The position numbers and the translations under genes were made by a program. Shown piece after piece: positions 1-23,128 of a DNA stretch of 24,568 nt (positions are counted from its first letter, which is position 1; each line of letters opens with the position of its first letter). Source of the DNA: a virus; the IMG/VR virus record IMGVR_UViG_3300032401_000083, positions 1-24,568 of that record, one strand, 5' to 3'. The notes beneath the pieces are model-generated. The model was given only the letters and a program-made list of their open reading frames with translations, did not search any database and was not told the origin of the DNA.

Positions 1-617
1 CGGGCGTCACGGGAACGGCCGATATCGCGGGTACTGCCCTTCTCGATGGAGCGGCGGCAGGCGTCTCGGCGGTCGATGCGAGCCTTAGCGTAGCGCGGCC
101 CTTGACGGGGGACGCGGCCTCGGGCTCATCGGCTGTCGGCGAACTGATCGCCATGCGCCCCTTGACCGGTTCCGTTGCCAGCACTTCCGCTGTTACCGCA
201 ACGCTCACGCCCGAGCGCGGGCTAACAGGCGCGTCCGTATCCGCATCCTCGGCAGTCGGCGAGCTGGCGAACGTCGCGTCCCTGTCAGGCTCTACGGGCG
301 GACTATCAACAGCCGCATCCGAGTTGACGGTTACGAGCCCTTCCACTACGGACCTAACCGGAACCGCAAGCGGAACGTCCGGGGCGAGCGCGGCCCTGAC
401 CTCGACGCAAGCCTTGGCAGGGACCATTACAGCCGTATCCTCCGCGACGGCAGACCTGTCCATCGTCAGCGTAACCGTCACGTTATCGAGCACCGTACAG
501 TTGACGGAACAGGTCAGCGGCCAGATCGACGTTGACACTTATTCATTCGACGGCCTTCTCAATACGTCCGTGCTCCTAATCAGCACGTTAACCGAATCCG
601 AAAGCATGTTGGGGTAA
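1..617 (+). CDS. Ala/Ser/Thr/Gly-rich repeat structural protein, 5' end missing
   Basis: The reading frame is open from the left edge, so the true start lies upstream. The TTG at 102 is inside the repeats and is probably not the start. The visible part is built of 20-residue units (consensus roughly LTG, then small residues, SA, then a hydrophobic L) that run to about base 467. A non-repetitive tail of about 50 residues follows and contains an IDVDTYSFDG segment. The composition is almost free of charged residues, Cys and aromatics, which suits an extended beta-rich fibrous structure. Position just before the connector gene, where capsid decoration or head-fibre genes often lie, suggests a head fibre or decoration protein; this is inference. 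Its Ser/Thr richness makes it a possible acceptor for the glycosylation genes downstream. The family is not recognised beyond similarity in style to phage repeat proteins. Confidence 0.75.
   Translation, partial: GVTGTADIAGTALLDGAAAGVSAVDASLSVARPLTGDAASGSSAVGELIAMRPLTGSVASTSAVTATLTPERGLTGASVSASSAVGELANVASLSGSTGGLSTAASELTVTSPSTTDLTGTASGTSGASAALTSTQALAGTITAVSSATADLSIVSVTVTLSSTVQLTEQVSGQIDVDTYSFDGLLNTSVLLISTLTESESMLG
36..467 (+). repeat. Seven in-frame 60-bp coding repeats (20 residues each)
   Basis: Units begin at 36, 96, 156, 216, 276, 348 and 408, each 60 bases long, with a 12-base insertion at 336-347. At protein level the units keep an L-(T/S/A)-G core near residue 3-5, an S-A or similar pair near residues 11-13 and a leucine near residue 17. 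The DNA copies have diverged substantially, so this is an old protein repeat and not a recent tandem duplication. Confidence 0.75.
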
Positions 618-2899: not shown

Positions 2900-3400
2900 A
2901 TGGGAACCGTTAGCGTAAAAGTCGAAGGTATCGAGAAGACGCTGGCGAGCCTCAAGAAGTGGCAGATCATCAAGCGGCAGGCTTGCGAGGATACGCTGAA
3001 GAAGATCGGGTTCAAGGTCGAGGCTGATGCGAAACGGATGACGCCCGTCTGGACGGGACGGCTTCGGAACTCCATGTCAACGAACTGGTCCGGGTCAGGC
3101 ATGACGAAGGGCAAGGTAAGCGGAACGGCCAAGGCCGACGATGGTGTCGGCGAGCCGCAGGGCCCGAAGGGATTGGTTGTCGTCGTCGGGACAAACGTTC
3201 TTTACGCGCACATGCAGGAATTCGGCTCATGGGGCGAGGGTCCGAAACCGGGTCCGGGTGAGACCATGCCCAAGCGTGAGCATGAGGCATGGCCGCGTCC
3301 GCAAGGCGGGTTCCAGATGCTTACTAAAGCCTATCTCCAGCACGAAGGCGAAGTCGGCACGGAGATCGGCAAGATCATGGGAAAGGACGAAAAGGTTTGA
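2900..3400 (+). CDS. HK97 gp10-like neck / tail completion protein
   Basis: A 166-residue protein starting one base after the previous stop. The N-terminal part (VSVKVEGIEKTLASLKKW) with a following basic helix, the KRMTPVWTGRLRNSM motif (residues 45-59, 'tPv.TG.LR.S' in the family) and the VGTNVLYAHMQEFG strand (about 97-110, 'v..n..YA..vEfG') are hallmarks of the HK97 gp10 family, which acts at the head-tail interface. The C-terminal part is rich in Gly, Pro and Lys (GPKPGPGETMPKREHE) and ends with a helix. In related phages the tail terminator normally follows directly. Here its stop overlaps the TTG start of a sugar aminotransferase, so an 8.5 kb island separates the two structural genes. 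Confidence 0.85.
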   Translation: MGTVSVKVEGIEKTLASLKKWQIIKRQACEDTLKKIGFKVEADAKRMTPVWTGRLRNSMSTNWSGSGMTKGKVSGTAKADDGVGEPQGPKGLVVVVGTNVLYAHMQEFGSWGEGPKPGPGETMPKREHEAWPRPQGGFQMLTKAYLQHEGEVGTEIGKIMGKDEKV

Positions 3401-4509
3401 TACCGCTTTTTAAAGTGCACATGCCGTCGAGCTTAGACGGTCCACTCCTCGACGTTTTACACTCTGGCTTCATAGGACAGGGAGCGAAGGTCGAGGAGTT
3501 CGAGAAACTCATCGGCATGTTCGTCGGCAATGAACACGTACTCACCGTGAACAGCGGCACGTCGGCCCTTCAACTGGCCCTGAAACTTGCCGACGTAGGC
3601 TATGGCGATGAGGTTATCACGACCCCGATGTCCTGCTCTGCCACGATGATGCCGATCCTGATGGCGGGGGCTAAGATCGTTTGGGCCGATATCGATCCCT
3701 GGACGGCCTGCATAGACCCGGAAAGCGTCAGGAAAAAGTTTACGGCCAAGACCAAGGCGGTCATCTGCGTAGACTGGGGCGGCTATCCGTGCGACCTTTC
3801 CGAGTTGATGACGCTATGCCGTGAGCATGGCGCCAAGCTCATCGAGGATGCCGCGCACGCGTTCGGAGCGCGGTATCAAGGAAAGCGCGTCGGCTCGATT
3901 TCGGACTTCACCTGCTTCTCCTTTCAGGCTATCAAACAGCTAACGACAATCGATGGGGGCGCATGCGCGTGCGCGGACGCGGGCGCATATAAGCGCGGCA
4001 AGCTCCTCCGCTGGTACGGGATCGACCGCGAGCAGAAGCGCGGCGACTTCCGATGCGAGGCCGACATCATCGAGGCAGGCACGAAGTGGCACATGAACGA
4101 CGTGGCCGCAACTATCGGCATCGAGCAAATGAAATATCTGCCGTCGATTCTGAGCCAGCACCAGGACAACGCTCTTTGGTACGACGGCGAATTGAGAAGG
4201 GCGAATATCAAAACCGTCCAGCCCTTGTGTTATAGGTACGACAGATTTTCTACGCATTGGCTCTACACCGTGCGTGCCCTTAGCCGCGACAGGTTCGTCA
4301 AGTGGATGAACGACAACGGGATTCAGACAAGCCGAGTCCATCAGCGGAACGACGTGCATACTTATGCTCTGGAATTCAAGGCCGATCTCCCCGGCGTGGA
4401 CGAATTTAACGCTCACCAATGTTCTATCCCGGTGGGGTGGTGGCTAACGGGCGACGATAAAGATTACATTCTAAACAAGATAAAGGAATGGGAAAATGTT
4501 TGCCTCTAA
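3397..4509 (+). CDS. DegT/DnrJ/EryC1-type PLP-dependent sugar aminotransferase
   Basis: A 370-residue protein of normal family length. The TTG start (overlapping the previous TGA) is chosen because IPLFKVHMP followed by VLHSGFIGQGAKVEEFEK is the usual family opening; starting at the ATG at 3421 would cut it. Seen motifs: VNSGTSALQLAL (residues 51-62, cofactor phosphate region), DAAHAFGA (151-158, the Asp that contacts the pyridine nitrogen) and CFSFQAIKQLTTIDGG (173-188) with Lys180 as the predicted Schiff-base lysine. Members transfer an amino group from glutamate to a nucleotide-linked 3- or 4-keto sugar. The next gene is a GNAT acetyltransferase, so the likely product is an N-acylated amino sugar nucleotide. 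The exact sugar cannot be told. No NDP-sugar dehydratase is present in the window to supply the keto substrate. Confidence 0.92.
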   Translation: MIPLFKVHMPSSLDGPLLDVLHSGFIGQGAKVEEFEKLIGMFVGNEHVLTVNSGTSALQLALKLADVGYGDEVITTPMSCSATMMPILMAGAKIVWADIDPWTACIDPESVRKKFTAKTKAVICVDWGGYPCDLSELMTLCREHGAKLIEDAAHAFGARYQGKRVGSISDFTCFSFQAIKQLTTIDGGACACADAGAYKRGKLLRWYGIDREQKRGDFRCEADIIEAGTKWHMNDVAATIGIEQMKYLPSILSQHQDNALWYDGELRRANIKTVQPLCYRYDRFSTHWLYTVRALSRDRFVKWMNDNGIQTSRVHQRNDVHTYALEFKADLPGVDEFNAHQCSIPVGWWLTGDDKDYILNKIKEWENVCL

Positions 4510-5053
4510 TGGCATTGTCTTTCGGCCCGTCGAGGAAAAGGATCTAGAGGCGATTCGCACCTTGCGGAATGACCCCTCAACTTGGGGCCAGCTCACGTCG
4601 ATAGGGCATATCTCAGTTGAGGCGCAGTCAGCATGGTTCTCGCGGCTGGACGGCGATCCGTCCCGGGAATACTTCGCCGTATTCACCGAGCGACAGGATG
4701 AGCATTACCCCGTCTATTTCGAGGGCGACTTCGTCGGTATCATCCGCATGGATGAGATAGACCGGATAAACCGTTCCGTGCGCATCGGGGCCGATGTTGT
4801 CCCGGCCATGCGCGGGCAGGGATACGGGACGCGCATCTATAAGGCACTCCTCAAATACTGCTTCGATTACATGGGGATGCACCGCGCCTGGCTCCTTGTC
4901 CTCGATACCAATGAGGTCGGCAAGAAGCTCTACTTCAATGCTGGGTTCAAGCTCGAAGGAAAGCACCGAGATGCCATCTGGCGTAATGGACAGTTCATAG
5001 ATTATCTCGCCATGAGTATTCTTGAGGACGAATACCGAGAAAGGGTTGCATGA
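4496..5053 (+). CDS. GNAT-family N-acetyltransferase (probable amino-sugar acetyltransferase)
   Basis: A 185-residue protein overlapping the aminotransferase end by 14 bases, with AAGGA at 4483-4487 before the ATG. It has the RimJ/RimL-like GNAT layout: VFRPVEEKDLEAIRTLRND at the N-terminus, a central strand region GDFVGIIRMD (77-86), the acetyl-CoA pyrophosphate-binding motif VVPAMRGQGYGT (101-112) and the closing LYFNAGFKLEGKHRDAIW segment (145-162). Paired aminotransferase and GNAT genes are known from pathways for N-acylated amino sugars (PseH-, FdtC- or WecD-type steps), so acetylation of the amino sugar made by the neighbouring enzyme is the favoured role. Acetylation of a protein N-terminus is an alternative, since the RimJ/RimL group does that too. 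Confidence 0.88.
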   Translation: MFASNGIVFRPVEEKDLEAIRTLRNDPSTWGQLTSIGHISVEAQSAWFSRLDGDPSREYFAVFTERQDEHYPVYFEGDFVGIIRMDEIDRINRSVRIGADVVPAMRGQGYGTRIYKALLKYCFDYMGMHRAWLLVLDTNEVGKKLYFNAGFKLEGKHRDAIWRNGQFIDYLAMSILEDEYRERVA

Positions 5054-5883
5054 TCGACATTCTGATCCCGACGCGCTTTTCCTGGAATTCGATTTGCCTG
5101 ACTATCGAGAGCATCGTAAAGCGCACTGTCCGCCAGGACTACCGCGTCATCGTTGCCGACAATAGCCTAGCCGATAACCGATTTGCCTGCGAGCCGCACA
5201 AGCGGCCGGCCGGGGAAGATGACGGCAACCGGCGCGCATATCTCCGCAACCTGGCCCGTCTGCCCTTCCTGAAGTTTGCCTATATCGAGGTAAAAGAGCA
5301 GGGCCGACGTTACGGGCACGGAGAAAACTTGAAGGTGCTGTGCGACGCATCCACCGCTGACTACGCGCTCCTACTGAACGCCAACTCCGAGGTCGTTCGC
5401 GGCGACTGGCTGGACGTGCTGTTAGACCCAATGAAAGACCCCGAGCACGACTTGGGTGTCGCCAGATTCCGATCCGGCGGGGCAAGAGAGCATGACTACA
5501 TAACGCCGACGTACTGGCCCAACATCATGCTCTTGGATATGCGACTTTATCGGCGATACTTCCCAGACCATACGTGGGAGCTAAGGCAGGTGGGCCTCGA
5601 GAACTTCGAGCGACCCGAGATATTCGCCGGACAGCCTCCCCCGCGCACGCCCGAGCGCGTACCCCCGCTCGTGTTCGCGGATACGGGATGGACGCTCTGG
5701 GAACGGTTGCACTTCGAGAACCCTGCCGGACTGAGGATGATACCGCTTCCCGATAATTACTGGAACACGCACATAACGTGGCGCGGCGGGATAGACCGGA
5801 ACTCGCATCGACCCGATCACCCCCATGTCACAGGCGTATTGGCTGAAGTCAACGCCGCTCTCGAAAGACTGAGGAACGAATAA
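5050..5883 (+). CDS. GT-A fold glycosyltransferase-like protein with altered DxD site
   Basis: A 277-residue protein whose ATG overlaps the preceding TGA (ATGA). The opening MIDILIPTRFSWNSICLTIE (1-20) and YRVIVADNSL (31-40) correspond to the first strands of family-2-like glycosyltransferases and resemble the paralogues at 6454, 7771 and the first domain at 8580. A GHGENLKVLCDASTADYALL stretch leads to the strand that normally ends in DxD. Here that position reads LLLNANSEVV (108-116), so both aspartates are replaced by asparagine (Asn110, Asn112). Metal-dependent sugar transfer may therefore be lost or altered. The C-terminal half is rich in Trp, Pro and Arg. It could be a divergent transferase, a non-catalytic partner or an acceptor-recognition subunit. 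Confidence 0.7.
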   Translation: MIDILIPTRFSWNSICLTIESIVKRTVRQDYRVIVADNSLADNRFACEPHKRPAGEDDGNRRAYLRNLARLPFLKFAYIEVKEQGRRYGHGENLKVLCDASTADYALLLNANSEVVRGDWLDVLLDPMKDPEHDLGVARFRSGGAREHDYITPTYWPNIMLLDMRLYRRYFPDHTWELRQVGLENFERPEIFAGQPPPRTPERVPPLVFADTGWTLWERLHFENPAGLRMIPLPDNYWNTHITWRGGIDRNSHRPDHPHVTGVLAEVNAALERLRNE

Positions 5884-6467
5884 TGGACTCAAAGTTCCTG
5901 GAGACATTCAACTCGCTCGAAGCGCCAATCCAATGCCGGGAGGAGTGGCTGGCCTTCCTAGAATACTGCGCCTCATATTTCGAGCATCGAGGGATTGAGC
6001 ATCCCGTTGTCTTGGAAATCGGAACGCGGCTGAATCAGCAAAAACCTTTCCATGAACAACTCTTGGGTGCCAGGCACATCGGCATCGACATCACGGACGC
6101 CGAGGGAAGGCCGGACATTATCGGCGATAGCACGGCACCGGAGACAATCGAGCGCGTCCGTTCCACGTTGGCCGGACGGTTCGTTGACCTCCTGTTTATC
6201 GACGGAGACCACGGTTACGAAGGTGTCAAGCGTGACTATGAAATCTACGGCCCACTAACCAGGCATATCATCGCCTTCCATGACATTAATCTCGAATGGC
6301 AAGGCGTGGGGATTAAGCAGTTCTGGGATGAACTCAAGATCAAGGAACAGCAAACCTTTTCCTTCGTTTCGATAGATTCCTGGACGGAACCGGAGATCCG
6401 CTTAGGATGCGCTACTCGAATCGGCATCGGCCTAGCCATCAGGAGAAATGCGAATGAAGTCCGTTGA
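5883..6467 (+). CDS. Class I SAM-dependent methyltransferase (Methyltransf_24 / CmcI-like)
   Basis: A 194-residue protein. The ATG shares a base with the previous TAA and has GAGGA at 5871-5875. It shows a Rossmann-type SAM-binding motif VVLEIGTRL (42-50), an acidic second strand HIGIDI (65-70) and the strand FVDLLFIDGDHGYEGVKRDY (100-119), followed by IIAFHDI (129-135). The FIDGDH...V..D and HD pair is characteristic of the Methyltransf_24/cephalosporin-hydroxylase-like group, which often modifies sugars in polysaccharide clusters, with metal ligands from the Asp and His residues. In this setting O-methylation of a glycan residue is the likely job. It lies between two glycosyltransferase genes and overlaps the next one. 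Confidence 0.85.
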   Translation: MDSKFLETFNSLEAPIQCREEWLAFLEYCASYFEHRGIEHPVVLEIGTRLNQQKPFHEQLLGARHIGIDITDAEGRPDIIGDSTAPETIERVRSTLAGRFVDLLFIDGDHGYEGVKRDYEIYGPLTRHIIAFHDINLEWQGVGIKQFWDELKIKEQQTFSFVSIDSWTEPEIRLGCATRIGIGLAIRRNANEVR

Positions 6468-7185
6468 AATCCTTATCCCAAACTTTAACTCCGGTGAAGC
6501 CATAGAGTTGACCATCGAAACCATCCGCAAACATGCGGGTTATCCGTTCACGATGACCGTGCGTGACGATGCGACATGGAGCGTTCCGGACGCAAGCATT
6601 CAGTTGTTCGAGGGATACGGCGACCTTGCGTACTTGCGGGCATGCCGAGACAAGGGTTGGCTGCATCTGATCGAAGGGGAACGGCGGATCATGCACGGCA
6701 CAAGCGTCGGCATCATGCTGGACCAATGCACAACCGACCTTGCCATGATCGTCGATTGCGACATGCAATTCGTAGCTCACGGATGGCTTGCCGACATGGT
6801 TGCCCTCCAAGAGAAAACGAACGCGGCACTCATTGTCAAGATGGAACATTTCCCCGACGATAACGATTGCCTTCAATCATGGTTTGTCATGGTGGACATG
6901 AAGCAATATCCGCTTATTCGAGATAACTGGGAATACAGGGAACGGGAGGATGGAAAGCCGGGACTGCGGGCGACGGGACATTTCATCTGGCGAAACGTCC
7001 TCTCTCGTGGGCTCGTGTGGGTGCCGACACCGGAAAGCGTTATCAAAAAATATTATCATCATGCACACCTCAGCGTATTGAGTGCCCCGCAGGTAGGGAA
7101 GGAATGGGAAGTCCGCAAGTTGAAATACGCGAGGGTCCAAACTGAGTTGAAAAAGTTCAGGAAGGAGAACAGTGCATCCGCTTAA
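6454..7185 (+). CDS. GT-A glycosyltransferase (GT2-like)
   Basis: A 243-residue protein. Two in-frame ATGs exist, at 6448 and 6454. The AGGAG at 6441-6445 is only two bases from the first and eight from the second, so 6454 is preferred. The protein begins MKSVEILIPNFNSGEAIELT, the usual first strand and helix of GT2 enzymes, and has MIVDCDMQFVAHGWL (98-112) with a DCD motif at 101-103 for the metal and sugar nucleotide. LAYLRACRDKGWLHLIEG (58-75) is almost repeated in the 7771 gene, which marks the two as paralogues. The C-terminal third is basic. No membrane segment is visible, so it should act in the cytoplasm. Donor and acceptor are unknown. It overlaps the upstream methyltransferase gene by 14 bases. 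Confidence 0.87.
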   Translation: MKSVEILIPNFNSGEAIELTIETIRKHAGYPFTMTVRDDATWSVPDASIQLFEGYGDLAYLRACRDKGWLHLIEGERRIMHGTSVGIMLDQCTTDLAMIVDCDMQFVAHGWLADMVALQEKTNAALIVKMEHFPDDNDCLQSWFVMVDMKQYPLIRDNWEYREREDGKPGLRATGHFIWRNVLSRGLVWVPTPESVIKKYYHHAHLSVLSAPQVGKEWEVRKLKYARVQTELKKFRKENSASA

Positions 7186-7774
7186 CAGACATTTCTGGAG
7201 GGAGACGAGCCGGAAGTATCCCCAGTATTTCAACGATCCGGCCGTCGTTATTGAATTTGGAGCCGTGAACATTAACGGTTCCATCCGCGACTATTTCAAC
7301 TGCAAGAACTATATCGGCGTTGATTGGCGTCCAGGAAAGGACGTGGACGTTGTAAGCCTGACGCATGAATTCAAATATCCGGCGTCATGTTTTAATACGG
7401 TCGCCTCGGCGTCCATGCTGGAACATGATCCGTACTGGAAACAGAGCCTGGCCAAGATGGTCGACCTCATGCGGGGCGACGGGATGCTGGTCATCTCGTG
7501 GGGGTCGGCATTGAATAATCCGCATGAACTGGCCGTTGCACCGGACGGAAAGTTTCACACACTTAAATCAAAGATCGTGTTTGATTACCTGGAATCGCTC
7601 GGTCTATATGTTCATCAGTTCCTATATGAACACTCGATGTTCTTGGGCCACTCCCCGAAGGTACTGACGGGATGGCAGGCCGGGTTCGGCGAGGTTACGC
7701 TTATCGGGTTTAAGGATCCGAAGTATGCCGAGGGGTTCCGAATCATCGATCCGTTCATCGAGGCCGATAGATGA
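7172..7774 (+). CDS. Class I SAM-dependent methyltransferase (Methyltransf_11-like)
   Basis: A 200-residue protein with a GTG start; AAGGAG at 7162-7167 supports it. Motif I reads VVIEFGAVNINGSIRDYF (25-42), the second strand NYIGVDWRP (46-54) ends in the acidic residue that binds the SAM ribose, and FNTVASASMLEHDPYWKQSL (74-93) is the post-strand-4 motif with the LEHD signature of sugar and small-molecule methyltransferases. DGMLVISWGS (102-111) is strand 5. It belongs to a different group from the methyltransferase at 5883, so the two probably methylate different positions or residues. It overlaps the previous glycosyltransferase end by 14 bases and the next start by four. Confidence 0.87.
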   Translation: MHPLNRHFWRETSRKYPQYFNDPAVVIEFGAVNINGSIRDYFNCKNYIGVDWRPGKDVDVVSLTHEFKYPASCFNTVASASMLEHDPYWKQSLAKMVDLMRGDGMLVISWGSALNNPHELAVAPDGKFHTLKSKIVFDYLESLGLYVHQFLYEHSMFLGHSPKVLTGWQAGFGEVTLIGFKDPKYAEGFRIIDPFIEADR

Positions 7775-8583
7775 ATCCGGTTGCGCTCCTCGTCTCTAAC
7801 TATAATTCAGGCGACGCGATCCAGCTCTGCGTAGAATCCATCCGTCGCTATACTCCGGAGGGCGCTTATAAACTGATTGTTTATAACGACCTTTGCAAGA
7901 ACGGAATTGATGATAATTATTTGCGCGGATGCCGGGACAAGGGATGGTTGACTCTGTTTGAGAATACCGGGGAAAAGGCGCTCGGATACCAAGTCGTCGT
8001 CAACCGTCTATTGCATGAGATATGCGATACGGAAAAAGCCGTCCTCCTAGATTGCGATATCCAGATCAAGGCGCATGGCTGGCTTGAGGACATGGCGAGA
8101 CTATTGGAAGACCCGTCCGCTTTAGCCGTATGCGATAACCGGAGTGAGGCGACATGTAGCAGAGGATGGTGTTCGGGATTTTATCGCTTCTGGTTCGGCG
8201 GGTTGAACATGGCGGCATACCGTGACGGCATGCAGGTGGACTGGGGATTCAGCGAAGGGGATCGGCGGGAATGGCCTTATTGCGAGATGTTCAAGAAGAT
8301 CGAGAATGCCGACTTCCCGGAAAAGCATGTCCCGGGATTTGACGACAACAAGGTTTTCAATGACCCCGGTTCACAACTCTGGCTGAAGGTCCATTTTTAT
8401 AATCCCAAAAAGTATCGAGTCCTGGAGATTCCGCAACCTCTCGCAAGTAAGTTTTATCATTATGGACACGTCAGCTTTTTCTACGATATCCCGGATAATT
8501 ACGATGATTATACGATGAGGACTAAGGCCATCGGGCTGTCTCGAATCAATGCGGCGCTGAGACAATTAAGGGGCGGAACGTGA
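7771..8583 (+). CDS. GT-A glycosyltransferase (GT2-like)
   Basis: A 270-residue protein starting with an ATGA overlap. It begins MNPVALLVSNYNSGDAIQLC, then YLRGCRDKGWLTLFEN (50-65) and AVLLDCDIQIKAHGWLEDMA (90-109), with DCD at 94-96. It is clearly a paralogue of the gene at 6454 and a more distant relative of the first domain of the 8580 protein. The middle part is rich in aromatic and Cys residues (CSRGWCSGFYRFWFGG), probably an acceptor-binding loop. The C-terminus carries FYHYGHVSFFYD, comparable with YYHHAHLSVL in the 6454 product. No signal peptide or membrane segment is seen. It probably adds one residue in a stepwise cytoplasmic glycan assembly; donor and acceptor are unknown. Confidence 0.87.
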   Translation: MNPVALLVSNYNSGDAIQLCVESIRRYTPEGAYKLIVYNDLCKNGIDDNYLRGCRDKGWLTLFENTGEKALGYQVVVNRLLHEICDTEKAVLLDCDIQIKAHGWLEDMARLLEDPSALAVCDNRSEATCSRGWCSGFYRFWFGGLNMAAYRDGMQVDWGFSEGDRREWPYCEMFKKIENADFPEKHVPGFDDNKVFNDPGSQLWLKVHFYNPKKYRVLEIPQPLASKFYHYGHVSFFYDIPDNYDDYTMRTKAIGLSRINAALRQLRGGT

Positions 8584-11500
8584 ACGAACCGCTTGTTAGC
8601 ATTGTGACGGCGCATTGTAATACGCCGGACTGGATCGAGCTTTTCGTTAAGAGCGTGAGGCGGTTCACGGCCGACGTGCCGCATGAAATCCTGGTTATAG
8701 ACAACGATTCGCTCGAAGTCAATAAGCGATGGCTCAGGGAACAGCCGGACGTGCGGATGATCGAAGTTCCCCAGCTATCTCACGGCGGGGCGATGGACAT
8801 TGGCACGCGGGGAGCTTGGGGCCGATATGTTTGTATCCTCGATTCGGATGTTCATATCCAACGTACCGGCTGGGTACAAGACCTGATAGCACTCTATCAC
8901 GAGAACGATAAAACCCGGCTCATCGGTTGCGTCGGCCCAAAGCATAAGCCGCTTCATCCGCCGCTTTTCTTTTTCGAGCGGGACTTCATTGTCAGGAGCA
9001 ATATCTCTTGGCAGTTTATACCCGACCCGGCCGTCCCGACGCAGACGGACACGGCGCAACAGGCATATTGGGATATCCTTGCGCTCGGATACGAAGTGCT
9101 GAGACTTCCGAAAGGCCCGAAGATATACGAAGACTTTATCGGCGACGAAATATGGATTGCCGGGAAACCGACCATCGCACACATGTGGTACGGGACGCGG
9201 TTCCAGGAAAACGGACTCCGGCCCAAGCTGGAACTCGACGGCTATAAACTGATTGACCATATTAAAAATAAAAGATCGCTTTTCGCACAACCTTTTGTGA
9301 GGGAGATATTGGGGAATGACCGAACCGCAATCATCATAACGACATTTATGCGGGATGCACTTCTTGTGCGATGCGTTGAAAGCATCAGGAAATTTTATCC
9401 TGATATCCCGATCTTCGTGGGCGACAACGGGAATCCGGACGATAAGAAAACGGAATTCCTGAAGGCCGCCAAGTGCGCGCATTTCCAACTTCCGTTTGAT
9501 CTCGGCGTGAGCGGCGTCCGTAACGAAACATTGAAACTCATCCCGCCGGAATACGAATACTTGATGATTATCGAAGACGACACGGTCTTCACCGACAAGA
9601 CGCAGGTTGAAAAACTCCGGGCGGTCTTAGACGATGAACCAGCGGCCGGACTCTGCGGTTGCCTATTATTTCTCAAGGATGGGCGAGAACAGCACTACGA
9701 AGGCAAGGTTTATAGCGAAGGTACAACGCACTTCATCAAGAAAATTGATTCTCCGAGATGGCGGAAGACGGCATCCGGCGTTCAGTTTACTACGAGCTTT
9801 GATCTTATCCTCAATATCTTCATGATGCGCCGCCAGGTCTGGATTGACAATCCGTGGGACACGGCATTTAAGACGGCACTGGAGCATGAAGATTTCTTCC
9901 TGGGGCTCCAGCAAAAGACGAAATGGCGCGTCGCCTATACCCACGACGTATCGCTACAACACCTTCCGGAAGGGTCAAACGATTATAAGAAATACAGGTG
10001 TCGTCCGGTGGGGTGGAAACTGTTCGGCGAGAAGTGGGGGGTTCAATATGTCAACAGCGACTATAATCTGGAATCGCCGCTTTCTTATGAGGCGATGGCA
10101 GAGGGGAAAGTGGTTGATCTCAAGGGTGACTGCCTGAAATTCGCTATCGATGTTTTAAGCGCCAATCAATGCACCTGGTGGCTTGAGGCCGGGACATGCC
10201 TCGGGGCAATACGAGAGCGGGGTTTTATCACGCATGATTCCGATATTGACATCGGTCTTCATCCGAAGGAACTGGCACTCTGGGACAAGCTCCATGCCGA
10301 CATGATCGCGGCCGGGTTTGAATTCTTGCGGGCGTGGACCCACGGCAAGAAGCGGATGGAATTGAGTTTCCGGAAGAACGGCGTCAAGATTGATCTTTTC
10401 TTCTTTTACGATGACGGCGATTTCTGGTGGCATGGCGCATTCGGGCCGAACAAGGATGGCGGATGGGACCATGATTGGGAATTCCTTCCACACGTTTTCT
10501 CGGCCCATCTTTTCAAGGACTTGAAGCCGGTCACGTTTCATAATCTTCCGTGCTTTCTGCCGAACCCGCCGGAACGGTATCTCCTGGAACGCTATGGCTC
10601 GACCTGGAAACAGAGGCAACGGGGATATCGATTCTGGACAGACTGCCGGGCTATCGACCGGAACTATTTTAAGCGGGGCACGAAGGTTGTCTTTATCGGC
10701 GGTGTCTGGGATCTCTTCCATGAGGGACACCTGGCAATCCTGGAACGGGCTAAGGCGCTCGGGACGAAATTGATTGTCGGCGTCCTGACCGACAAGGCCG
10801 CATCGGATTACAAGGCGCAGCCGGTCATCCCCTTCGAGGCCAGGCGGCGGATTGTCGATGGCTTGAAGTGTGTCGATAAAACCATCGTACAGAACGACAG
10901 GAATTCGACAGCCGATCTTGAAGCGGCAAGCGTCCAACCGCACTATCTCGTCCACGGTGATGACTGGGACCAGTGTCCCGGCGAGACCTATGTCCGGAAG
11001 CATGGCGGCAAATTGGTTTACCTGCCTTACACACAAGGCATATCGACGACGGAGATCCGGCAGCGGATTCTCGACGGCGAAAAGCTGAAGCCGACGTTCC
11101 GCGAGAATAAACTTGCCATCGGCATCAAGACCTTCATGCGCGACGCGGCGTTCTTTAAGACGATGGAAACATATCAAACGACCCTCGCAAAAATCGACCT
11201 TCCGTACCGATTCTACATAGCCGATGATGGCCCGCAAAATGACGAGAGGGCCCTGCTCTATACCAAGCTCAAACAGGACGGTCACATGGTCATCTCACTC
11301 CCGTTTAATTCGGGGATTTCATTCGGCAGAAACGCCATCGTCAAGCAGGCCAAGGAAGATTATGTCCTGATATCCGACGATGATGTTGTCATCAGGGATG
11401 CCGTATCAATCAAAAACATGAAGGCCGTCCTCGACTCGGACGAGAAGATCGGGTTGGTTGCGGCAACGCTCAGGTATGAGAAGGGGGCATTCTTTGCCGG

Positions 11501-11876
11501 TGAGAACTATGCCAAGGGGATAAGGCTTGAGAGGCGGGGCAAACTCCTGGCTCGCACACCCGCGCCCCGCGAGGTCCACGCCACGGCCGACGGCATCAAG
11601 TATGTCCTGGCCGACCAGGTTCCGAACATCTTCCTTGCCAAACGCCAATTATTCAAGGACGTGATGTGGGATAACCGCATCAAGATCGAATTCGAGCACA
11701 TAGACTTCTTCCTGGAACTCCAGAAAACAACATGGAAGGCGGCCGTTTGCCTGGATGCCGAGGCGTTCCATCTTATCACGGCCCCGGAGGAGGGCTATAA
11801 CCAATATCGCCGGACGACCCCGATGGCCTATTTTCTTCAAAAGCATGAATTGGGATCGGTAGTCAACCAGTTTTAG
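8580..11876 (+). CDS. Five-domain GT-A / GT-A / LicD / cytidylyltransferase / GT-A fusion protein
   Basis: A 1098-residue protein with a GTG start overlapping the previous TGA. Domains in order: (1) residues 1-230, GT2-like, opening VSIVTAHCN, with CILDSDVHI (DSD 88-90). (2) 248-500, GT-A, with IIITTFMRDA, LGVSGVRNE and MIIEDDTVF (EDD 332-334). (3) 511-695, LicD/fukutin-like phosphotransferase, with WLEAGTCLGAIRERGFI and THDSDIDIGL (Asp553/555/557) and GVKIDLFFFY (Asp605). (4) 701-835, cytidylyltransferase, with GGVWDLFHEGHLAIL (HxGH at 714-717) and TQGISTTEIRQRI (ISTTEI 821-826). (5) 844-1095, GT-A, with TFMRDA, SGISFGRN and LISDDDVVI (DDD 933-935). All signature residues are present. Inference: the cytidylyltransferase makes a CDP-alcohol that the LicD domain transfers to a glycan built by the GT domains. 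The phospho-alcohol may be choline, ethanolamine, aminoethylphosphonate, glycerol or ribitol phosphate; the ending TQGISTTEI most resembles ethanolamine-phosphate cytidylyltransferases. No membrane segment is visible. Confidence 0.9.
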   Translation: MNEPLVSIVTAHCNTPDWIELFVKSVRRFTADVPHEILVIDNDSLEVNKRWLREQPDVRMIEVPQLSHGGAMDIGTRGAWGRYVCILDSDVHIQRTGWVQDLIALYHENDKTRLIGCVGPKHKPLHPPLFFFERDFIVRSNISWQFIPDPAVPTQTDTAQQAYWDILALGYEVLRLPKGPKIYEDFIGDEIWIAGKPTIAHMWYGTRFQENGLRPKLELDGYKLIDHIKNKRSLFAQPFVREILGNDRTAIIITTFMRDALLVRCVESIRKFYPDIPIFVGDNGNPDDKKTEFLKAAKCAHFQLPFDLGVSGVRNETLKLIPPEYEYLMIIEDDTVFTDKTQVEKLRAVLDDEPAAGLCGCLLFLKDGREQHYEGKVYSEGTTHFIKKIDSPRWRKTASGVQFTTSFDLILNIFMMRRQVWIDNPWDTAFKTALEHEDFFLGLQQKTKWRVAYTHDVSLQHLPEGSNDYKKYRCRPVGWKLFGEKWGVQYVNSDYNLESPLSYEAMAEGKVVDLKGDCLKFAIDVLSANQCTWWLEAGTCLGAIRERGFITHDSDIDIGLHPKELALWDKLHADMIAAGFEFLRAWTHGKKRMELSFRKNGVKIDLFFFYDDGDFWWHGAFGPNKDGGWDHDWEFLPHVFSAHLFKDLKPVTFHNLPCFLPNPPERYLLERYGSTWKQRQRGYRFWTDCRAIDRNYFKRGTKVVFIGGVWDLFHEGHLAILERAKALGTKLIVGVLTDKAASDYKAQPVIPFEARRRIVDGLKCVDKTIVQNDRNSTADLEAASVQPHYLVHGDDWDQCPGETYVRKHGGKLVYLPYTQGISTTEIRQRILDGEKLKPTFRENKLAIGIKTFMRDAAFFKTMETYQTTLAKIDLPYRFYIADDGPQNDERALLYTKLKQDGHMVISLPFNSGISFGRNAIVKQAKEDYVLISDDDVVIRDAVSIKNMKAVLDSDEKIGLVAATLRYEKGAFFAGENYAKGIRLERRGKLLARTPAPREVHATADGIKYVLADQVPNIFLAKRQLFKDVMWDNRIKIEFEHIDFFLELQKTTWKAAVCLDAEAFHLITAPEEGYNQYRRTTPMAYFLQKHELGSVVNQF

Positions 11877-11885
11877 GAGCGGATA

Positions 11886-12311
11886 ATGGCAACACGCAAG
11901 CTAGGGTTTTCGCCGCTGATGAAGGCGCTTTATACCAGGCTCACAACCGATGCGTTGACTAATACTTATACGGTTTATAACTATGTTCCGGCGACGGCGG
12001 TCATGCCTTACGTTTCGTTTGGTGCCCCGATTGGCGTCCGATCCACATCGTTCACGACGCGGGATTCCGAGGTTGAAGAAAACTCCGTTGTTGTTCATGT
12101 ATGGAGTTCGATTGAGGGCGACAAGCAGGCATCGGAATATATGGACAATATCGTCCAGGCCATCCTCAGCTCGGGTCTGACCATAACGGGATATTTCACG
12201 CCGTATTTGGCGCAGCTCGAAATGTCGGAACTCTTCATTGACGATTCCGTGCCGACGCGACTCGTGAGACACGGGGTGCTGAGGTTCCGATTCGTTATGT
12301 CTCCGACTTGA
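11886..12311 (+). CDS. Tail terminator / tail completion protein (DUF3168-like)
   Basis: A 141-residue protein with AGGAG (11875-11879) six bases before its ATG; this AGGAG overlaps the stop of the fusion protein gene. FSPLMKALYTRLTTDALTNTYTVYNYVP at the N-terminus, then MPYVSFGAP, a VHVWSSIEGDKQASEYMDNIVQAIL segment and the final HGVLRFRFVM strand fit the DUF3168 tail-completion family (SPP1 gp17-like), in which 'P.v....p.......s.......v.vws...g...a..i...i...L' is typical. It caps the tail tube and docks it to the neck. Its position just before the tail tube gene agrees. It is the first structural gene after the glycan island. A 119-base gap with small hairpins separates it from the tube gene. 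Confidence 0.85.
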   Translation: MATRKLGFSPLMKALYTRLTTDALTNTYTVYNYVPATAVMPYVSFGAPIGVRSTSFTTRDSEVEENSVVVHVWSSIEGDKQASEYMDNIVQAILSSGLTITGYFTPYLAQLEMSELFIDDSVPTRLVRHGVLRFRFVMSPT

Positions 12312-12430: not shown

Positions 12431-12832
12431 ATGACTACAGCCGCAGTAACCGGCAAAAACATGACCCTCTCCGTAGAGGGTGACCTGATGGCGGAGGCGC
12501 AATCGTTCGCGCTGCATTTCGCGCAGTCGATGATCGACGTAACCTCCAAGGATTCAAACAACTGGGGCGACTTCCTCGGCGGCCGCAAGGAATGGACGGT
12601 CGATTTCAGCGGACTCTATATCTACAACGACGTTGCCAAAAAGTGCCTCCAGGACCATTTCATCATCGGGACCCCGGCCACGTTGACCCTCATCATTACC
12701 ATGCCCGATAGTGCAACGTTCACGGGCGAGGCCGTTCTGGAATCGATGGATTACGAAGGTCCGGTCGAAGAAGCATTGACCATCTCGGGATCACTCAAGG
12801 GGCAGGGCACGCTTACAGCCTCCGTAAGCTGA
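12431..12832 (+). CDS. Major tail tube protein (TP901-1 family)
   Basis: A 133-residue protein preceded by a strong Shine-Dalgarno (AAAGGAG, seven bases from the ATG) and followed by a strong terminator, both expected for an abundant structural protein. The sequence has AEAQSFALHFAQSMIDVTSKDSNNW (residues 17-41), a typical tail tube segment ('...t.....id.TskdSg.w...l.G...w..s..g'), then FLGGRKEWTVDFSGLYIYND (44-63) and, near the C-terminus, FTGEAVLESMDYEGPVEEAL and ISGSLKGQGTLT. This is the order seen in TP901-1-type major tail proteins, and the length is normal. The protein stacks in hexameric rings to form the tube around the tape measure protein. Confidence 0.88.
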   Translation: MTTAAVTGKNMTLSVEGDLMAEAQSFALHFAQSMIDVTSKDSNNWGDFLGGRKEWTVDFSGLYIYNDVAKKCLQDHFIIGTPATLTLIITMPDSATFTGEAVLESMDYEGPVEEALTISGSLKGQGTLTASVS

Positions 12833-12867
12833 CGCCTCCTCCTTTCATTCTTCCTCCTTTCTCCCTC

Positions 12868-12900
12868 GGGGGGCGTCCGCGGGGATGCCCCCCACTTTTT
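12868..12900 (+). terminator. Strong Rho-independent terminator after the tail tube gene
   Basis: GGGGGGCGTCC (12868-12878) pairs with GGATGCCCCCC (12883-12893) with one G-U pair, an 11-base-pair GC-rich stem closed by a GCGG loop, followed by AC and TTTTT (12896-12900). It is preceded by a pyrimidine-rich tract (about 12833-12867). It stands inside the late operon, between the tube gene and the chaperone gene, so partial termination could set a high tube-to-tape-measure ratio. Confidence 0.85.
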
Positions 12901-12923
12901 AATCTTTTCAGCTAGGAGTTGGC

Positions 12924-13328
12924 ATGGTTAAACGAACAGTCCCGATCACGCTGGCTGACGGGAAACTCCGACATCTCCGCTATGACTTCAATGCGCTCGT
13001 TGCATTGGAGGAAACGCTGGGGATCTCCATCACCAATCTTCGGGAAGCGATGTCCGGGCCCGGGATGCTCAGAGCGGTTCGCGGCATCCTCTGGGCCGGT
13101 CTCATTCACGAGGATGAAAGCCTGGGCCTCAAGGCCGCTGGCGAACTTATCGAAGCGGCCAAGTTGGGCGAGATTTCGGTCGTGATTACCGAAGCCTTAT
13201 CCGTGGCCTTTGGTACGGGCGATGGAGGCCCAAAAAACGCGGAGGAGCCGGCGACACCGGCGGCGGAGACAAGCCCCTCGACGGGCGCGGCTTCCTCAGA
13301 GCAAGCGAGCGAACAGCTTACGCACTAG
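12924..13328 (+). CDS. Tail assembly chaperone, short (gpG-like) form
   Basis: A 134-residue protein with AGGAG (12914-12918) upstream. It begins MVKRTVPITLADGKLRHLRYD, followed by FNALVALEETLGISITNLRE, the usual opening of phage tail chaperones of the gpG type ('...v.l..g....l.fd..al..lEe..g'). Helices to about residue 95 are followed by a low-complexity Ala/Pro/Ser/Glu tail (residues 107-134) downstream of the slippery site. It is the normal-frame product. It overlaps in -1 frame with a second open frame that continues to 13666. The pair sits directly before the tape measure gene, which is the canonical place. The protein binds the tape measure protein and recruits tube subunits during tail assembly. 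Confidence 0.85.
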   Translation: MVKRTVPITLADGKLRHLRYDFNALVALEETLGISITNLREAMSGPGMLRAVRGILWAGLIHEDESLGLKAAGELIEAAKLGEISVVITEALSVAFGTGDGGPKNAEEPATPAAETSPSTGAASSEQASEQLTH

Positions 13329-13666
13329 GCTTGCGTCCCTGGGAATTCTTGGCCGTGACGCCCGGGGAACTCTGGATCATGGCGGATGCCATAGGCGAGC
13401 GCGAGCGCGTGCGCGAGAAGGAGATGTGGCGGCGGTTCGCATTCCTGGCGGCGGAAACCGTGAACATCTCCGGGAAGAGCGTCCGAAGGCCAGTGCGGGC
13501 TAAGGACCTGGTTCGCTTCGATGATGATGACAAAGAGAAGAAAGGATTGACTCCGGCTGATATCGAACAGAGGAAACGACAGGCAATGGAAACCGCGAAA
13601 CTTCACAAGTCAAAATTCTGGACAAAATTGAAGGATACGTCTGTCCAGAAATTGACCGGAGACTGA
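12924..13666 (+). CDS. Tail assembly chaperone, frameshifted (gpGT-like) form
   Basis: Slippage by -1 at AAAAAAC (13232-13238) joins the first 105 codons of the gpG-like gene to an open frame that runs without a stop to TGA at 13664-13666, giving a predicted 247-residue product. After the slip the frame reads RGGAGD..., then FLRASERTAYALGLRPWEFLAVTPGELWIMADAI; the GLxPWEFxxLTPxEL motif is typical of the second chaperone domain in many phages. A charged region with RERVREKEMW and a Lys-rich C-terminus follow. The TTG at 13331 is not needed as a start: the motif runs through it from upstream, which argues for frameshifting and against a separate gene. The long form is expected to be the minor product and to contact the tube protein. 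Confidence 0.8.
13232..13261 (+). promoter_or_regulatory. Programmed -1 ribosomal frameshift site
   Basis: The heptamer A_AAA_AAC (13232-13238) is in the correct register for the upstream frame (codons CCA AAA AAC). Eight bases later GCCGG (13247-13251) pairs with CCGGC (13257-13261) over the loop CGACA. An alternative, larger hairpin pairs GAGGAGCCG (13242-13250) with CGGCTTCCTC (13288-13297) with one bulged T. The -1 frame is open from here through the second chaperone domain. Confidence 0.8.
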
Positions 13667-13667
13667 C

Positions 13668-16600
13668 ATGGGCGAGATCGGAAATATCTGGATTAAGATC
13701 GGCGCAAAAATTGACGACTTTGAGAAGAACATGTCTGCCGCCGAGAAGGCGATGGTCAAGGTCGGCGACAAATTCCAGGGTATCGGAAAGACACTGGGCA
13801 TCGCCGGTGCGGCCATCACCGCCAGCATGGGCCTCATCATTGCCAAAACCGCGAACCTCGGCGATGAGTTCTATGATCTCAGCCAGCGCACTGGCATCGC
13901 CGTAGAAACGCTGTCGTCCTTCAAGCTCGCTGCCGACAAGAGCGGAACATCCATAGGCGGATTCGCAACGGGCATGAAGGGCTTGTCCCGCGCCATGTTC
14001 GAGGCGGCAGGCGGCGGCAAGGAGGCCCAGGAAGCATTTAAGTCTGTCGGGGTGTCCGCAACGGACAGTTCGGGCAAACTTCGACCGCTCGACCAAGTCA
14101 TGCTCGATGTGGCAGATCGCTTTGCCTCGATGGCAGATGGTGCCGAGAAGAACGCTCTGGCCATGAAGCTCTTCGGCAAAGCCGGCATGGATCTCATCCC
14201 CATGCTCAATCTCGGACGCAAGGGGCTCGAAGAAAACGTTGAGCAGATGAAAAGGTTCGGCAGCGTTACCCTTGAAGAAGCCCGGGCGGGCGATGCCTTC
14301 AACGATGCCATGACGGACCTACAGGCCGCGACAGGCGGCCTGACCAGGACTATTGGCAACGCCCTGATTCCGGCCATGACCAGTCTGGCAGCGAAGGCTT
14401 CCGAGATCATCGCCAAGGTCAGCGCATGGGCAAGGGAACACCCATTGCTTATTAAGGTTGTAAGCGGAACGGTCTTGGTAATCGGGGGATTGCTAACAGC
14501 CCTGGGAACTCTGAGCTACGCCTTTGGAACAATACTAAAACATATTCCGACATTGATAACGGGCCTCAAGACCCTAAGAGCCCTGCTGTCCACACTGGTA
14601 TCTAAAACGATTGTTTTTACGTTCGCCATAGCCGGGGTTGCAATCGTCGTGGCGGGCGTCGCTAAGATGATCGCGGATTTCAAGAAGCTCCGGGAAGAGG
14701 GTAAGACAACGGCAGATGCCCTGACGGCGATGGCTCCGAGTTTCAACCCGTTTAAGAACATGTCCCGCGAAGGTCTCGGAAAATTCTTGACGGACATGGA
14801 TGCGGCCCGGGATAAGTCGATTAATCTCAAGGGCGCGATGATCCTGCTCGGTGATGCCTTCCGCGCTATCAAGGGGGCCATCGACCCCGCAACTTCAAGC
14901 GTTGCCAACCTTGCCGCCATCTTCAAGGAATTCGGCCTCAAGACCAAGACTGAACTCACGGCTGAACTGGCCAATGCTGAGGCGGCGCTCAAACTCTTGA
15001 AGGCCTCGGTTGAGGCGACGCCCGGGGCCATTACGACCTTAGAAGATAAAATTAAATCCCTAAAGGAAAGCCTCTACGGCGCGCGGACGGAGACCGAAAC
15101 ACTCACCGAGACATTCACCCCGATGGCTAGGGGGGCTGCGTTTGTCCGCGACGTGATACAGGGGTTCGCGGGCGAGTTGACAAATACATTCCTTCCGGCG
15201 GCTCGGGACATGTCGCTGGTCATGGCGGCGGCCCCGGGCACGTTCAATGAGGTTGGGAGTGCGGCAAGCCGTCTTGAATATGTGTTTAAGGCCATCGGCG
15301 ATGCCATCGGCGTGTCGGCTGCAACGGTCAAGGTTGCGGTGTGGAATATGCAGGCCGATATCTTGGCAATGATGGGGATTATCCTCCCGAAAATTCAATC
15401 CCTCCCCCAGGCGATCGGGCCGGCCATGAATGAGGTTTCCACGATTGTTACCAATGCCGTGCAAAATATCGCTGGGGCCATTGCTGGTGCATTTAATCTT
15501 CAGGGGCTTTTCGGGGCCGCACCAAAAACAGTTAAATTCGACAGCTCCTATTATGATGCAATGATTAAAGCGGCAACGGCAGCTTACGATAAAGAAAGAG
15601 CCTTGATTGAAGCCAACAATGACGCTCGCCTTAATGCGGCTCGCAAGGCTTACGGTGCACAGGAATTACTTATCAGCCGAGCCGAAGAGGATTTTGATCG
15701 AGACCTAGAACGTCACTACGATTCGCAGGACAGGGCGTATGAGCGTCAGTACGAGAACCAGAAGAGGGCTATTGAAAACAGCAAGATGACGGAGGCCCAG
15801 AAATATGCGGCACTTCAGGCATTGGAAAGAGCATACGAGGATGCGAAGGCCGCTAGAGAAAAAGCAAGGGAAGACAAAAAGGTAGCACTCGAACGCAAAC
15901 GCGAAGATGCAAAGTTGGCGCGGGAATTAGTGCATGAGAAAGCAATCGAAGCCATAAGAACCGCGGGGTTGGCAAAGCTCTTGGCTTTACAAAATGCTCA
16001 CCAGGCCGAACTGGATGCTATTCGAGTCGCCGAGGATGCGGCGCGGCAGAAGCAGGCCGATGATGAATTGAAAAGACAGAATAGCCTCTGGACCAAGGTC
16101 AAGGGAATATTTGCTACAGCCATTGAAGAAATGCTCAAGCTGTGGATTGGAAAATTTATTGCGAACATTATCGGCGGGGCGGCATCGGCGGCGACGGGCG
16201 TCGCCACCTCGATGGCATCAATCGGAACAACGATTGCCTCGTTGGTATCGACAGTTGGAACGGTGCTGACAACGCTTGTCGCATCCATTGGAACGGCCAT
16301 TGTGACATTGGCAACGGCCATCGGGACGGCTATGGTGACGCTGGCAACGGGGATCGCTTCGGCGGCAACGATCATCGCGGCGGCGGCCCCAGCGATCATC
16401 GTCACATCCTTGCTGGCGCTCGGCATTATGGCCGGGCTGAATTTGCTCAAGCGAATCTTCGCTGCGGGCGGAACCGGGGCGGGTGACGGCATGGGCCGCG
16501 TCGTCGAACGGCAGGACATCCAGATCAGCCTCCTCACGAGGATATTTGATACGCTCAACGACAATATCAAGACGGCACTATGGGGCATCTCGACTAAACT

Positions 16601-17833: not shown

Positions 17834-18510
17834 TGACCTTCAACCCGGCGCTAACGATTCAAGACCTTGTATGGCTGGCCGAAATTGAGCCTGCCCGGAG
17901 ACTTGAGGGCGCAACATGGAGCCCCACCGCGCCGAGTTGTTATTACATCGCGCACCCGGAAGGAAAGCCCTCCCGCGTCCGGCAATGCCTGAAATCTACG
18001 GGTGTTATCATAACCTATGCGCCGGACGTGGCCGACTTGGCGACATGTCAATCCACGGCCTCATCCTGGTATTGGGACGCATCGAATACGCGCCTCTACG
18101 TTCACACATCGACGGCGGCGGATCCCGGCGTCGGGAGTGGGCTGTTCTATGTCAATTCCTATTTTTGGGAGCGGTTAGCAGACCGTCAAGTCGATCTTGA
18201 TAGCCATCCCTACCGGCCGCTTCTTGCCCCATCATCGATTTCCGACCTGAGTTATGAGGCGACGCTTTTCAGCTCCGGCGGGATTACGCAAAGTTTCGGT
18301 TCGCTGAACGTTCTTAATCCTGACGGTTATTGGGACTCCCGGCTTGCGGCCTATGTCTATGAGGGCAAACGCATCCTCGTTAAGTTCGGCAAATACGGCG
18401 ATGCCTATGCGGATTACGTGAAGCTCTTTGACGGCTATACCGGCGGGATAATATGGGGGGACGAGTCTGTCGAATTCGATATCGAAGACCCGCGAAGGTT
18501 CCAGGAATAG
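17833..18510 (+). CDS. Tail hub / tip protein, N-terminal half (probably split gene)
   Basis: A 225-residue protein. The ATG at 17833 overlaps the previous TGA, with GAGGAG at 17818-17823 before it; the GTG at 17824 is less likely. Seen features: a WYWDASNTRLYVHTSTAADP segment (about residues 77-96), a repeated FSSGGITQSFGSLNVLNPDG region and a final GYTGGIIWGDESVEFDIEDP segment. In comparable phages the 'fdG.i....w.d..v.f...d.rr.l' segment is followed, in the same protein, by '.l......P......G..iPi.YG', which here begins the next gene. The two genes are two bases apart and in different frames. Together they are close to the size of a single hub/tip protein. The role is a guess from place and segment order. 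Confidence 0.65.
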   Translation: MTFNPALTIQDLVWLAEIEPARRLEGATWSPTAPSCYYIAHPEGKPSRVRQCLKSTGVIITYAPDVADLATCQSTASSWYWDASNTRLYVHTSTAADPGVGSGLFYVNSYFWERLADRQVDLDSHPYRPLLAPSSISDLSYEATLFSSGGITQSFGSLNVLNPDGYWDSRLAAYVYEGKRILVKFGKYGDAYADYVKLFDGYTGGIIWGDESVEFDIEDPRRFQE

Positions 18511-18512
18511 CC

Positions 18513-23046: not shown

Positions 23047-23056
23047 AAGAGACGCA

Positions 23057-23128
23057 ATGATGGTATATTTTTATGCAGATCAAAATATTGGGAGATTTAA
23101 TCTGGTACATTCGAGGGTGCGGCAATGA
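23057..23128 (+). CDS. Possible 23-residue mini-ORF between fibre and hydrolase
   Basis: An ATG at 23057 opens a 24-codon frame (MMVYFYADQNIGRF...) whose TGA overlaps the next gene's ATG as ATGA, the same coupling used elsewhere in this operon. The coding evidence is otherwise thin: the stretch is A/T-rich, only a weak purine-rich site lies upstream, and no family is recognised. It could simply be a leader that couples translation of the hydrolase gene to the fibre gene, or chance. Confidence 0.3.
   Translation: MMVYFYADQNIGRFNLVHSRVRQ

Follow-up and report, generated by a model that had tools for sequence, protein, structure and literature searches.

What does a tailed phage do with a run of sugar-chemistry genes set inside its tail operon, and which structure would their product decorate? 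The window analysed here is the complete IMG/VR record IMGVR_UViG_3300032401_000083, a phage fragment of 24,568 bases, in which eight + strand open reading frames (ORFs) at 3397-11876, referred to below as the island, are bounded by a gp10-like gene and a tail-terminator gene. The island is probably a virion-glycan assembly line that builds a phosphate-substituted glycan on the C-terminal Ser/Thr tail of the tail-tube protein.

The position of the island is fixed. Searches that started from the terminator, from gp10 and from the part of the last island gene that joins a LicD domain to a cytidylyltransferase (LicD-CT) brought up relatives from many different samples (contigs are named by our own handles, such as G005 or L084). 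About 35 further viral contigs keep the island site, and in all relatives that include the relevant stretch, gp10 and the terminator flank the island. With the LicD-CT profile, full-length or nearly full-length relatives of 40-93% identity were found in about 38 contigs. The tail terminator lies directly 3' of the LicD-CT gene in 29 of the 32 loci with a readable next gene; in two of the remaining three a small ORF lies between, and in one the terminator was not called. The gp10 gene is upstream in all LicD-CT loci whose upstream side is readable. An enzyme-independent search with the tail tube gave 27 loci. By our count the upstream side can be seen in 25, and in these the LicD-CT gene is present whole, or as split glycosyltransferase (GT) and LicD genes, in all but L179, which has a GT and a methyltransferase only, and L177 and L178, which have neither. 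The site is empty in the far outgroups L050 and L051, where gp10 adjoins the terminator. An earlier sequence-only reading of the window had described eight coupled glycan genes between gp10 and the tail terminator, which is borne out by the ORFs, their overlaps, the Pfam and phrog families and the flanks. The gene-neighbourhood search that it proposed finds the same gp10-island-terminator order in other phages from many samples, and an assembly artefact is thereby ruled out.

The C-terminal Ser/Thr tail of the tail tube is the predicted glycan acceptor, a residue-level prediction drawn from its covariation with the enzymes. In alignment A5, where the other tubes are 34-79% identical to the window tube, the last residue is Ser in 14 of 14 tubes and forms one of only 6 invariant columns. 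Among non-redundant tube clusters with enzymes, 22 of 23 end in Ser and the 23rd in STSA, whereas 0 of 3 enzyme-negative clusters end in Ser (Fisher p 0.0015, a value that treats clusters as independent and overstates that independence, enzyme loss and Ser-tail loss being one evolutionary event in two close contigs). A Ser end was found in 0 of 29 PF06199-family tube candidates from 200 bacterial genomes. The tubes of L083 and L084 end in GALQSTAS and AALESTAS, and those of L183 and L179 in GELESTAS, whereas the enzyme-negative L177 and L178, whose tubes are 79-87% identical to those of L083 and L084, end in GALAKP and GALAKV. The other structural proteins compared between these two pairs are about 68-95% identical and have like C-termini. 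L177 and L178 are a sister pair in which the GT-LicD genes were lost. The structural model of the tail tube has a mean predicted local confidence (pLDDT) of 67.8; the top matches of a fold search with it are tail tubes, none of them under E 0.001. The tubes of phages lambda and SPP1 have C-terminal extensions that stand out from their surface. The tube C-terminal Ser pattern also agrees with the C-terminal glycan sites of mycobacteriophages, which a passage of PMC12619734 citing Freeman 2023 reports on capsid and tail tube.

The genes of the island and its flanks are as follows.

2900..3400, + strand: HK97 gp10-like neck/tail-completion gene, left boundary of the island (Pfam PF04883, 4.3e-10; phrog_5, 1.4e-14)
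3397..4509, + strand: i1, DegT/DnrJ/EryC1 sugar aminotransferase, PseC/CalS13-like (PF01041, 1.3e-86)
4496..5053, + strand: i2, GNAT N-acyltransferase, PseH-like (PF13302, 1.3e-14)
5050..5883, + strand: i3, glycosyltransferase family 2 (GT2)-like protein (PF00535, 5.2e-7)
5883..6467, + strand: i4, methyltransferase of the Methyltransf_24 family (PF13578, 4.9e-6, barely over the cut-off)
6448..7185, + strand: i5, GT2, variable cassette (PF00535, 4.1e-7)
7172..7774, + strand: i6, S-adenosylmethionine methyltransferase, variable cassette, GTG start (phrog_32762, 2.4e-24; no Pfam match)
7771..8583, + strand: i7, GT2, variable cassette (PF00535, 4.3e-5)
8580..11876, + strand: i8, 1098 aa, GT2 fused to GT2-LicD-cytidylyltransferase-GT2 (Pfam: three GT2 stretches, 6.5e-34; LicD, 3.3e-12; CTP_transf_like, 1.6e-16)
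11886..12311, + strand: tail terminator of the DUF3168/gp17 family, right boundary of the island (PF11367, Tail_completion_gp17, 1.2e-12; phrog_176, 1.6e-19)
12431..12832, + strand: tail-tube protein, predicted glycan acceptor, C-terminus ...LTASVS (PF06199, Phage_tail_2, 1.6e-17)
12868..12893, + strand: intrinsic-terminator-like hairpin 3' of the tube gene, the strongest of the region

Each junction within the island overlaps by 1-20 bp, the overlap between the gp10 stop and the TTG start of i1 is 4 bp, and 9 bp separate the end of the last gene from the tail-terminator start. Terminator-like hairpins number 11 against a shuffle mean of 10.2, with none in the island stronger than the one at 12868..12893, and promoter- or terminator-like sites in the island stretch are no commoner than in shuffled sequence. 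At the far end of the operon, positions 20095-24246 encode an NHL-repeat tail protein and, after it, a glycoside hydrolase with a weak likeness to apiosidases.

Within i8, the stretch that starts at about 9294 and runs to 11876 represents the invariant core gene of this locus (GT2-LicD-CT-GT2). Its LicD profile match scores 47.4 bits against a cut-off of 22.6 and covers the N-terminal part of the domain only; the LicD motif of i8 is GTCLGAIRERGFITHDSDID, and the motif G-[TS]-x-L-G-...-D-x-D-x-D is found in most LicD-CT proteins that cover this region. The LicD domain is nearest to FKRP (fukutin-related protein). The CT domain matches CTP_transf_like with 61.1 bits against a cut-off of 21 and has both diagnostic motifs, HxGH, present as HEGH at residue 714, and [ST]T-x-I. 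It is nearest to a chain of 5x3d listed as phosphoenolpyruvate phosphomutase, a chain which we take to be the CyTase domain of Fom1, and then to ethanolamine-phosphate and glycerol-3-phosphate cytidylyltransferases. The AlphaFold model of the LicD-CT protein, made with six close sequences, has a mean pLDDT of 37.9 and is unusable for fold. Since domains that activate and use a cytidine diphosphate (CDP) compound share one chain, the core enzyme likely adds a phosphate-linked substituent. CTP_transf_like is not matched in L074, and the LicD of L183 is a gene apart, with no CT in the visible part, so the cap may vary between members or draw on CDP-compounds of the host.

The chemistry of i1 and i2 is similar to that of PseC and PseH of the pseudaminic acid pathway, of which they are not members. 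The nearest NCBIfam model to i1 is PseC, at 229.9 bits below the equivalog cut-off of 423.5, and the nearest to i2 is PseH, at 73.2 bits below the cut-off of 93.1. The closest solved structures to i1 are 4zwv and 4xau, both named 'putative aminotransferase', and CalS13, and Lys180 in the motif SFQAIKQ occupies the position of the lysine that binds pyridoxal phosphate. Nearness to PseC, PseH and CalS13 suggests that i1 and i2 aminate C4 of a nucleotide-linked 4-keto-6-deoxy sugar and then N-acylate it. A specific name for the amino sugar or the CT substrate was dropped, all NCBIfam equivalog cut-offs being missed. L049, whose tail terminator is about 46% identical to that of the window, carries a GDP-mannose 4,6-dehydratase-like gene, an enzyme type that makes 4-keto-6-deoxy sugars.

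The remaining island genes differ in how widely they are kept. The GNAT i2 is 74-91% identical in every close-relative island that shows it, and i3 is found in all large islands among the close relatives. In the six members where its motif was found, i3 has N-x-N in place of the DxD of other GT2s, and it could be a GT of an unusual kind or else an accessory subunit. Of the variable cassettes, i5 is 43-47% identical in most relatives and 92% in L012, i6 is 84-91% identical in G001, G004 and L004 and absent from G005 and G006, and i7 is 80% identical in L004.

Comparison of the loci separates a constant core from an exchangeable remainder. The minimal islands of L062-L067 consist of the GT2-LicD-CT-GT2 gene and one methyltransferase, an i4-family relative that is their sole accessory gene, and the islands of L061, L073, L081 and L082 consist of one GT and the core. 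Large islands are found in the window, G001, G004, G005, G006, L004 and partly in L012 and L014; they share the aminotransferase, GNAT and i3 at one end and the core at the other where complete, and gene clustering gives each complete large island a different middle. With overlapping ORFs resolved, there are 10 genes in G005 and 11 in G004. Between the window and G006, identity is 92% for gp10 (the part present), 91% for the aminotransferase, 92% for the core and 93% for the terminator, against 52% or less for the methyltransferase and GTs of the middle. Synonymous divergence between the window and G005 is 2.26 for the aminotransferase, 0.90 for the GNAT, 0.41 for i3, 0.49 for the core and 1.22 for the terminator, and such jumps between neighbouring genes are the pattern expected from block exchange by recombination. 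That several cassette types are found again in contigs from other samples speaks against chimeric assembly. The large island thus has the look of a miniature O-antigen locus, with conserved ends and a mosaic middle. The breadth of the pathway stressed in the sequence-only reading is present, as elaboration: the constant part is the single core gene, and around it the aminotransferase, GNAT, further GTs and methyltransferases come and go by addition or exchange.

The island genes and their flanks are under purifying selection, the ratio of nonsynonymous to synonymous substitution (dN/dS) being 0.02-0.20 over those compared. Protein distances of the core follow those of the terminator (Mantel r 0.85) and the tube (0.75; n=14, p about 0.001). 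From this correlation and the low dN/dS, the core gene is a settled member of the tail module. Other genes were also observed at the site: a DNA methylase inserted among the island genes of G001 (27273-27926, oriented), an SLT transglycosylase among those of L048 (869-1621), and, in one subclade, a sulfotransferase-like gene at the island's 5' end (L177 8369-9166, L084 9231-10007, and also L179 and L183).

As one correction to the earlier reading, the 1098-aa form of i8 is specific to the window. In close relatives the first GT (~250 aa) is a gene of its own that overlaps the core. The window lacks about 22 bp between near-direct repeats (TGACGGAACC...TGACCGAACC), which fuses the frames. A separate fusion of 1112 aa occurs in G014 and L071, and from the two fusions the first GT and the core enzyme probably act together.

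The path that we infer from these genes, including its substrates, linkage, acceptor and order of steps, would run as follows. Late in infection, before or during tail assembly, soluble phage enzymes would build a short glycan on the C-terminal Ser/Thr tail of the tube. The GT2 parts of the core would add sugars, the CT domain would convert a small alcohol phosphate (or phosphonate) to its CDP-activated form, and the LicD domain would transfer the activated group as a phosphodiester substituent. The aminotransferase and GNAT of large islands would turn a 4-keto-6-deoxy precursor of the host into an N-acylated 4-amino-6-deoxy nucleotide sugar, and the cassette GTs and methyltransferases would determine chain structure. 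Exchange of the middle cassettes between conserved ends would then give close relatives different tail glycans, and the benefit to the phage may be shielding or a change of serotype.

Several points weigh against this account. The locus is known from sequence alone, no virion, glycan or enzyme activity having been observed, and known bacterial LicD enzymes act mostly on cell-surface polymers. The joint loss behind the tube covariation is, as said, a single event. Tubes of the L062 group end in AAAHS, with a single Ser; the always-present i3 is a GT2-like protein without the DxD motif; and L177 and L178 keep the sulfotransferase-like gene, which there has no explained target. The C-termini of the major head proteins MCP1 and MCP2 are themselves Ser/Thr-rich (SAATS, SSTS, LTTSS) in G001, G005, L061, L081 and L082 and could be acceptors too. 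In these contigs they are encoded by two tandem HK97-type genes of unequal length (G001 13421-14644 and 14658-15683, oriented). Glycosylation of a structural protein other than the tube, whether these head proteins, the Ser/Thr-rich product of orfA or a neck protein, is accordingly an alternative to be weighed, and we consider it unlikely. The orfA gene (window 3-617, its 5' end cut off) encodes low-complexity Ser/Thr/Ala-rich repeats with 33% Ser+Thr, possibly a mucin-like virion protein. A second glycan spot past the capsid genes carries a GT4-type glycosyltransferase (G005 12791-13984; G001 18382-20012, oriented), in G001 together with an i4-like methyltransferase and beside Ser/Ala-rich proteins, and mycobacteriophage capsids are glycosylated (PMC12363180, PMC12619734). 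However, orfA is variable in the clade and was called in 3 sequences, covariation with the enzymes is seen for the tube tail only, and the head protein has an identical TIG end in L084, which has the enzymes, and in L177, which lacks them. This shared end makes the head-protein C-termini less likely as sole acceptor.

Modification of the host surface had been named as the alternative to decoration of a virion protein. The enzymes would alter teichoic acid, lipopolysaccharide or capsule late in infection and so block superinfection or re-adsorption to debris, as surface polymers are the usual targets of bacterial LicD and GT2 enzymes, published work has read LicD and GT genes of phages as surface modification (PMC8008677) and the nucleotide-sugar enzymes of the island are of cell-envelope type. 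Yet no strong hydrophobic or transmembrane segment was found in any island protein of the window, no flippase, polymerase or polyprenyl-phosphate/lipid-carrier enzyme was recognised in the island, and there is no match there to the GtrA/GtrB families of gtr-type serotype conversion. The complete genomes G012 and G015 (direct terminal repeats of 81 bp and 114 bp) have no Phage_integrase or Resolvase match; an integrase was found in the incomplete relative G014. The strict neck/terminator position and the covariation of the tube C-terminus would be left unexplained, and modification of the host surface is less likely than virion glycosylation, indeed improbable, falling a little behind another virion acceptor. 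Virion-protein decoration is the best-supported reading, by the fixed site, the absence of detected transmembrane and recognised lipid-carrier enzymes, the two complete genomes without an integrase match and the tube-tail covariation. That the site is a mere hot spot for unrelated cargo without a common function is very unlikely: the methylase, transglycosylase and sulfotransferase-like genes do share it, but the cargo is almost all glycan chemistry, and nearly every member of the clade has the LicD-CT gene, which evolves under purifying selection and whose distances track those of structural genes. Least probable of all, to the point of being scarcely credible, is glycosylation or hypermodification of phage DNA, for which the methylase inside the G001 island and the phage GTs able to glycosylate DNA, cited in one part of PMC12619734, could be invoked; such modification agrees neither with the aminotransferase/GNAT/LicD-CT chemistry nor with the late position among structural genes, and no base-hydroxymethylating enzyme was recognised in the island, whole genomes not having been searched for base-modifying enzymes.

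A related tail terminator was found in none of 50,697 phage records; the DUF3168 profile is too diverse for a collection-wide scan. For the host, one scan of genome contigs gave two weak partial matches only, and in 299 genomes of one phylum the matches listed all lie around the CT domain. The distant phage contigs L102, L094, L101 and L087 have separate LicD and CT matches, which in L102 and L094 lie within about 2-7 kb of matches to gp6-connector or tape-measure profiles.

Bacterial O-antigen and capsule loci have conserved ends and exchangeable middle GT cassettes that set serotype. The phage locus differs from them in that no Wzx/Wzy or lipid-carrier enzyme is recognised and the site lies inside a phage tail operon. 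Virion glycosylation by phage enzymes is known for the mycobacteriophages Che8, Corndog and Myrna (PMC12363180; also PMC12619734 and PMC11256854), which have phage-encoded glycosyltransferases in common with the present phages and use them to modify major virion proteins. They have one or a few GT genes, whereas here up to 10 further genes, an aminotransferase, a GNAT and methyltransferases among them, accompany a LicD-CT core; the locus has a mosaic middle and a fixed place between neck and terminator genes, and the modification is predicted from genes. Chlorovirus PBCV-1 likewise encodes multidomain glycosyltransferases (A111/114R), which build an atypical virion-protein glycan independently of host organelles (PMC7826918); the likeness is by description only, PBCV-1 being a eukaryotic virus with N-glycans on its major capsid protein and no LicD-CT described. 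Multi-gene glycosylation clusters that differ by clade, of 6 to 33 genes and with rare bacterial-like amino sugars, are found in Megavirinae (PMC10117803), which are giant amoeba viruses with fibril glycans, whereas here a tailed phage has an island of 2 to 11 genes. The sequence-only reading knew of no pathway of this breadth with LicD chemistry. LicD itself has a precedent in phages, as some Flandersviridae, also tailed phages, carry a LicD-family enzyme (PMC8008677). That licD lies in the replication module beside ispD, is not reported within a GT/CT protein and was read as teichoic-acid modification. Literature searches on phage tail-protein glycosylation and phage LicD found nothing closer. 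Within the literature searched, the LicD-CT core that keeps its place next to the tail terminator throughout a phage lineage, the O-antigen-like accessory mosaic and the residue-level acceptor prediction are new.

Virion glycosylation appears to be a settled trait of this lineage, so far seen only in metagenome contigs: the modifying gene is almost as constant a part of the tail operon as the terminator itself, and the core is a natural multi-domain enzyme that may both activate a phosphate substituent and transfer it onto a protein-bound glycan. Tentatively, the locus could be a phage serotype locus of the O-antigen kind, by which sibling phages obtain distinct phosphodiester-capped tail-tube glycans; these might then, and this we hold equally tentatively, evolve under agents of the environment that recognise virions or under phage-phage competition. 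If true, it becomes testable which tail parts carry the glycan and what glycans do for virions with no antibodies around, the locus would show how a virus swaps its surface chemistry cassette by cassette, and virus surface sugars would be a variable trait, like bacterial surface antigens.

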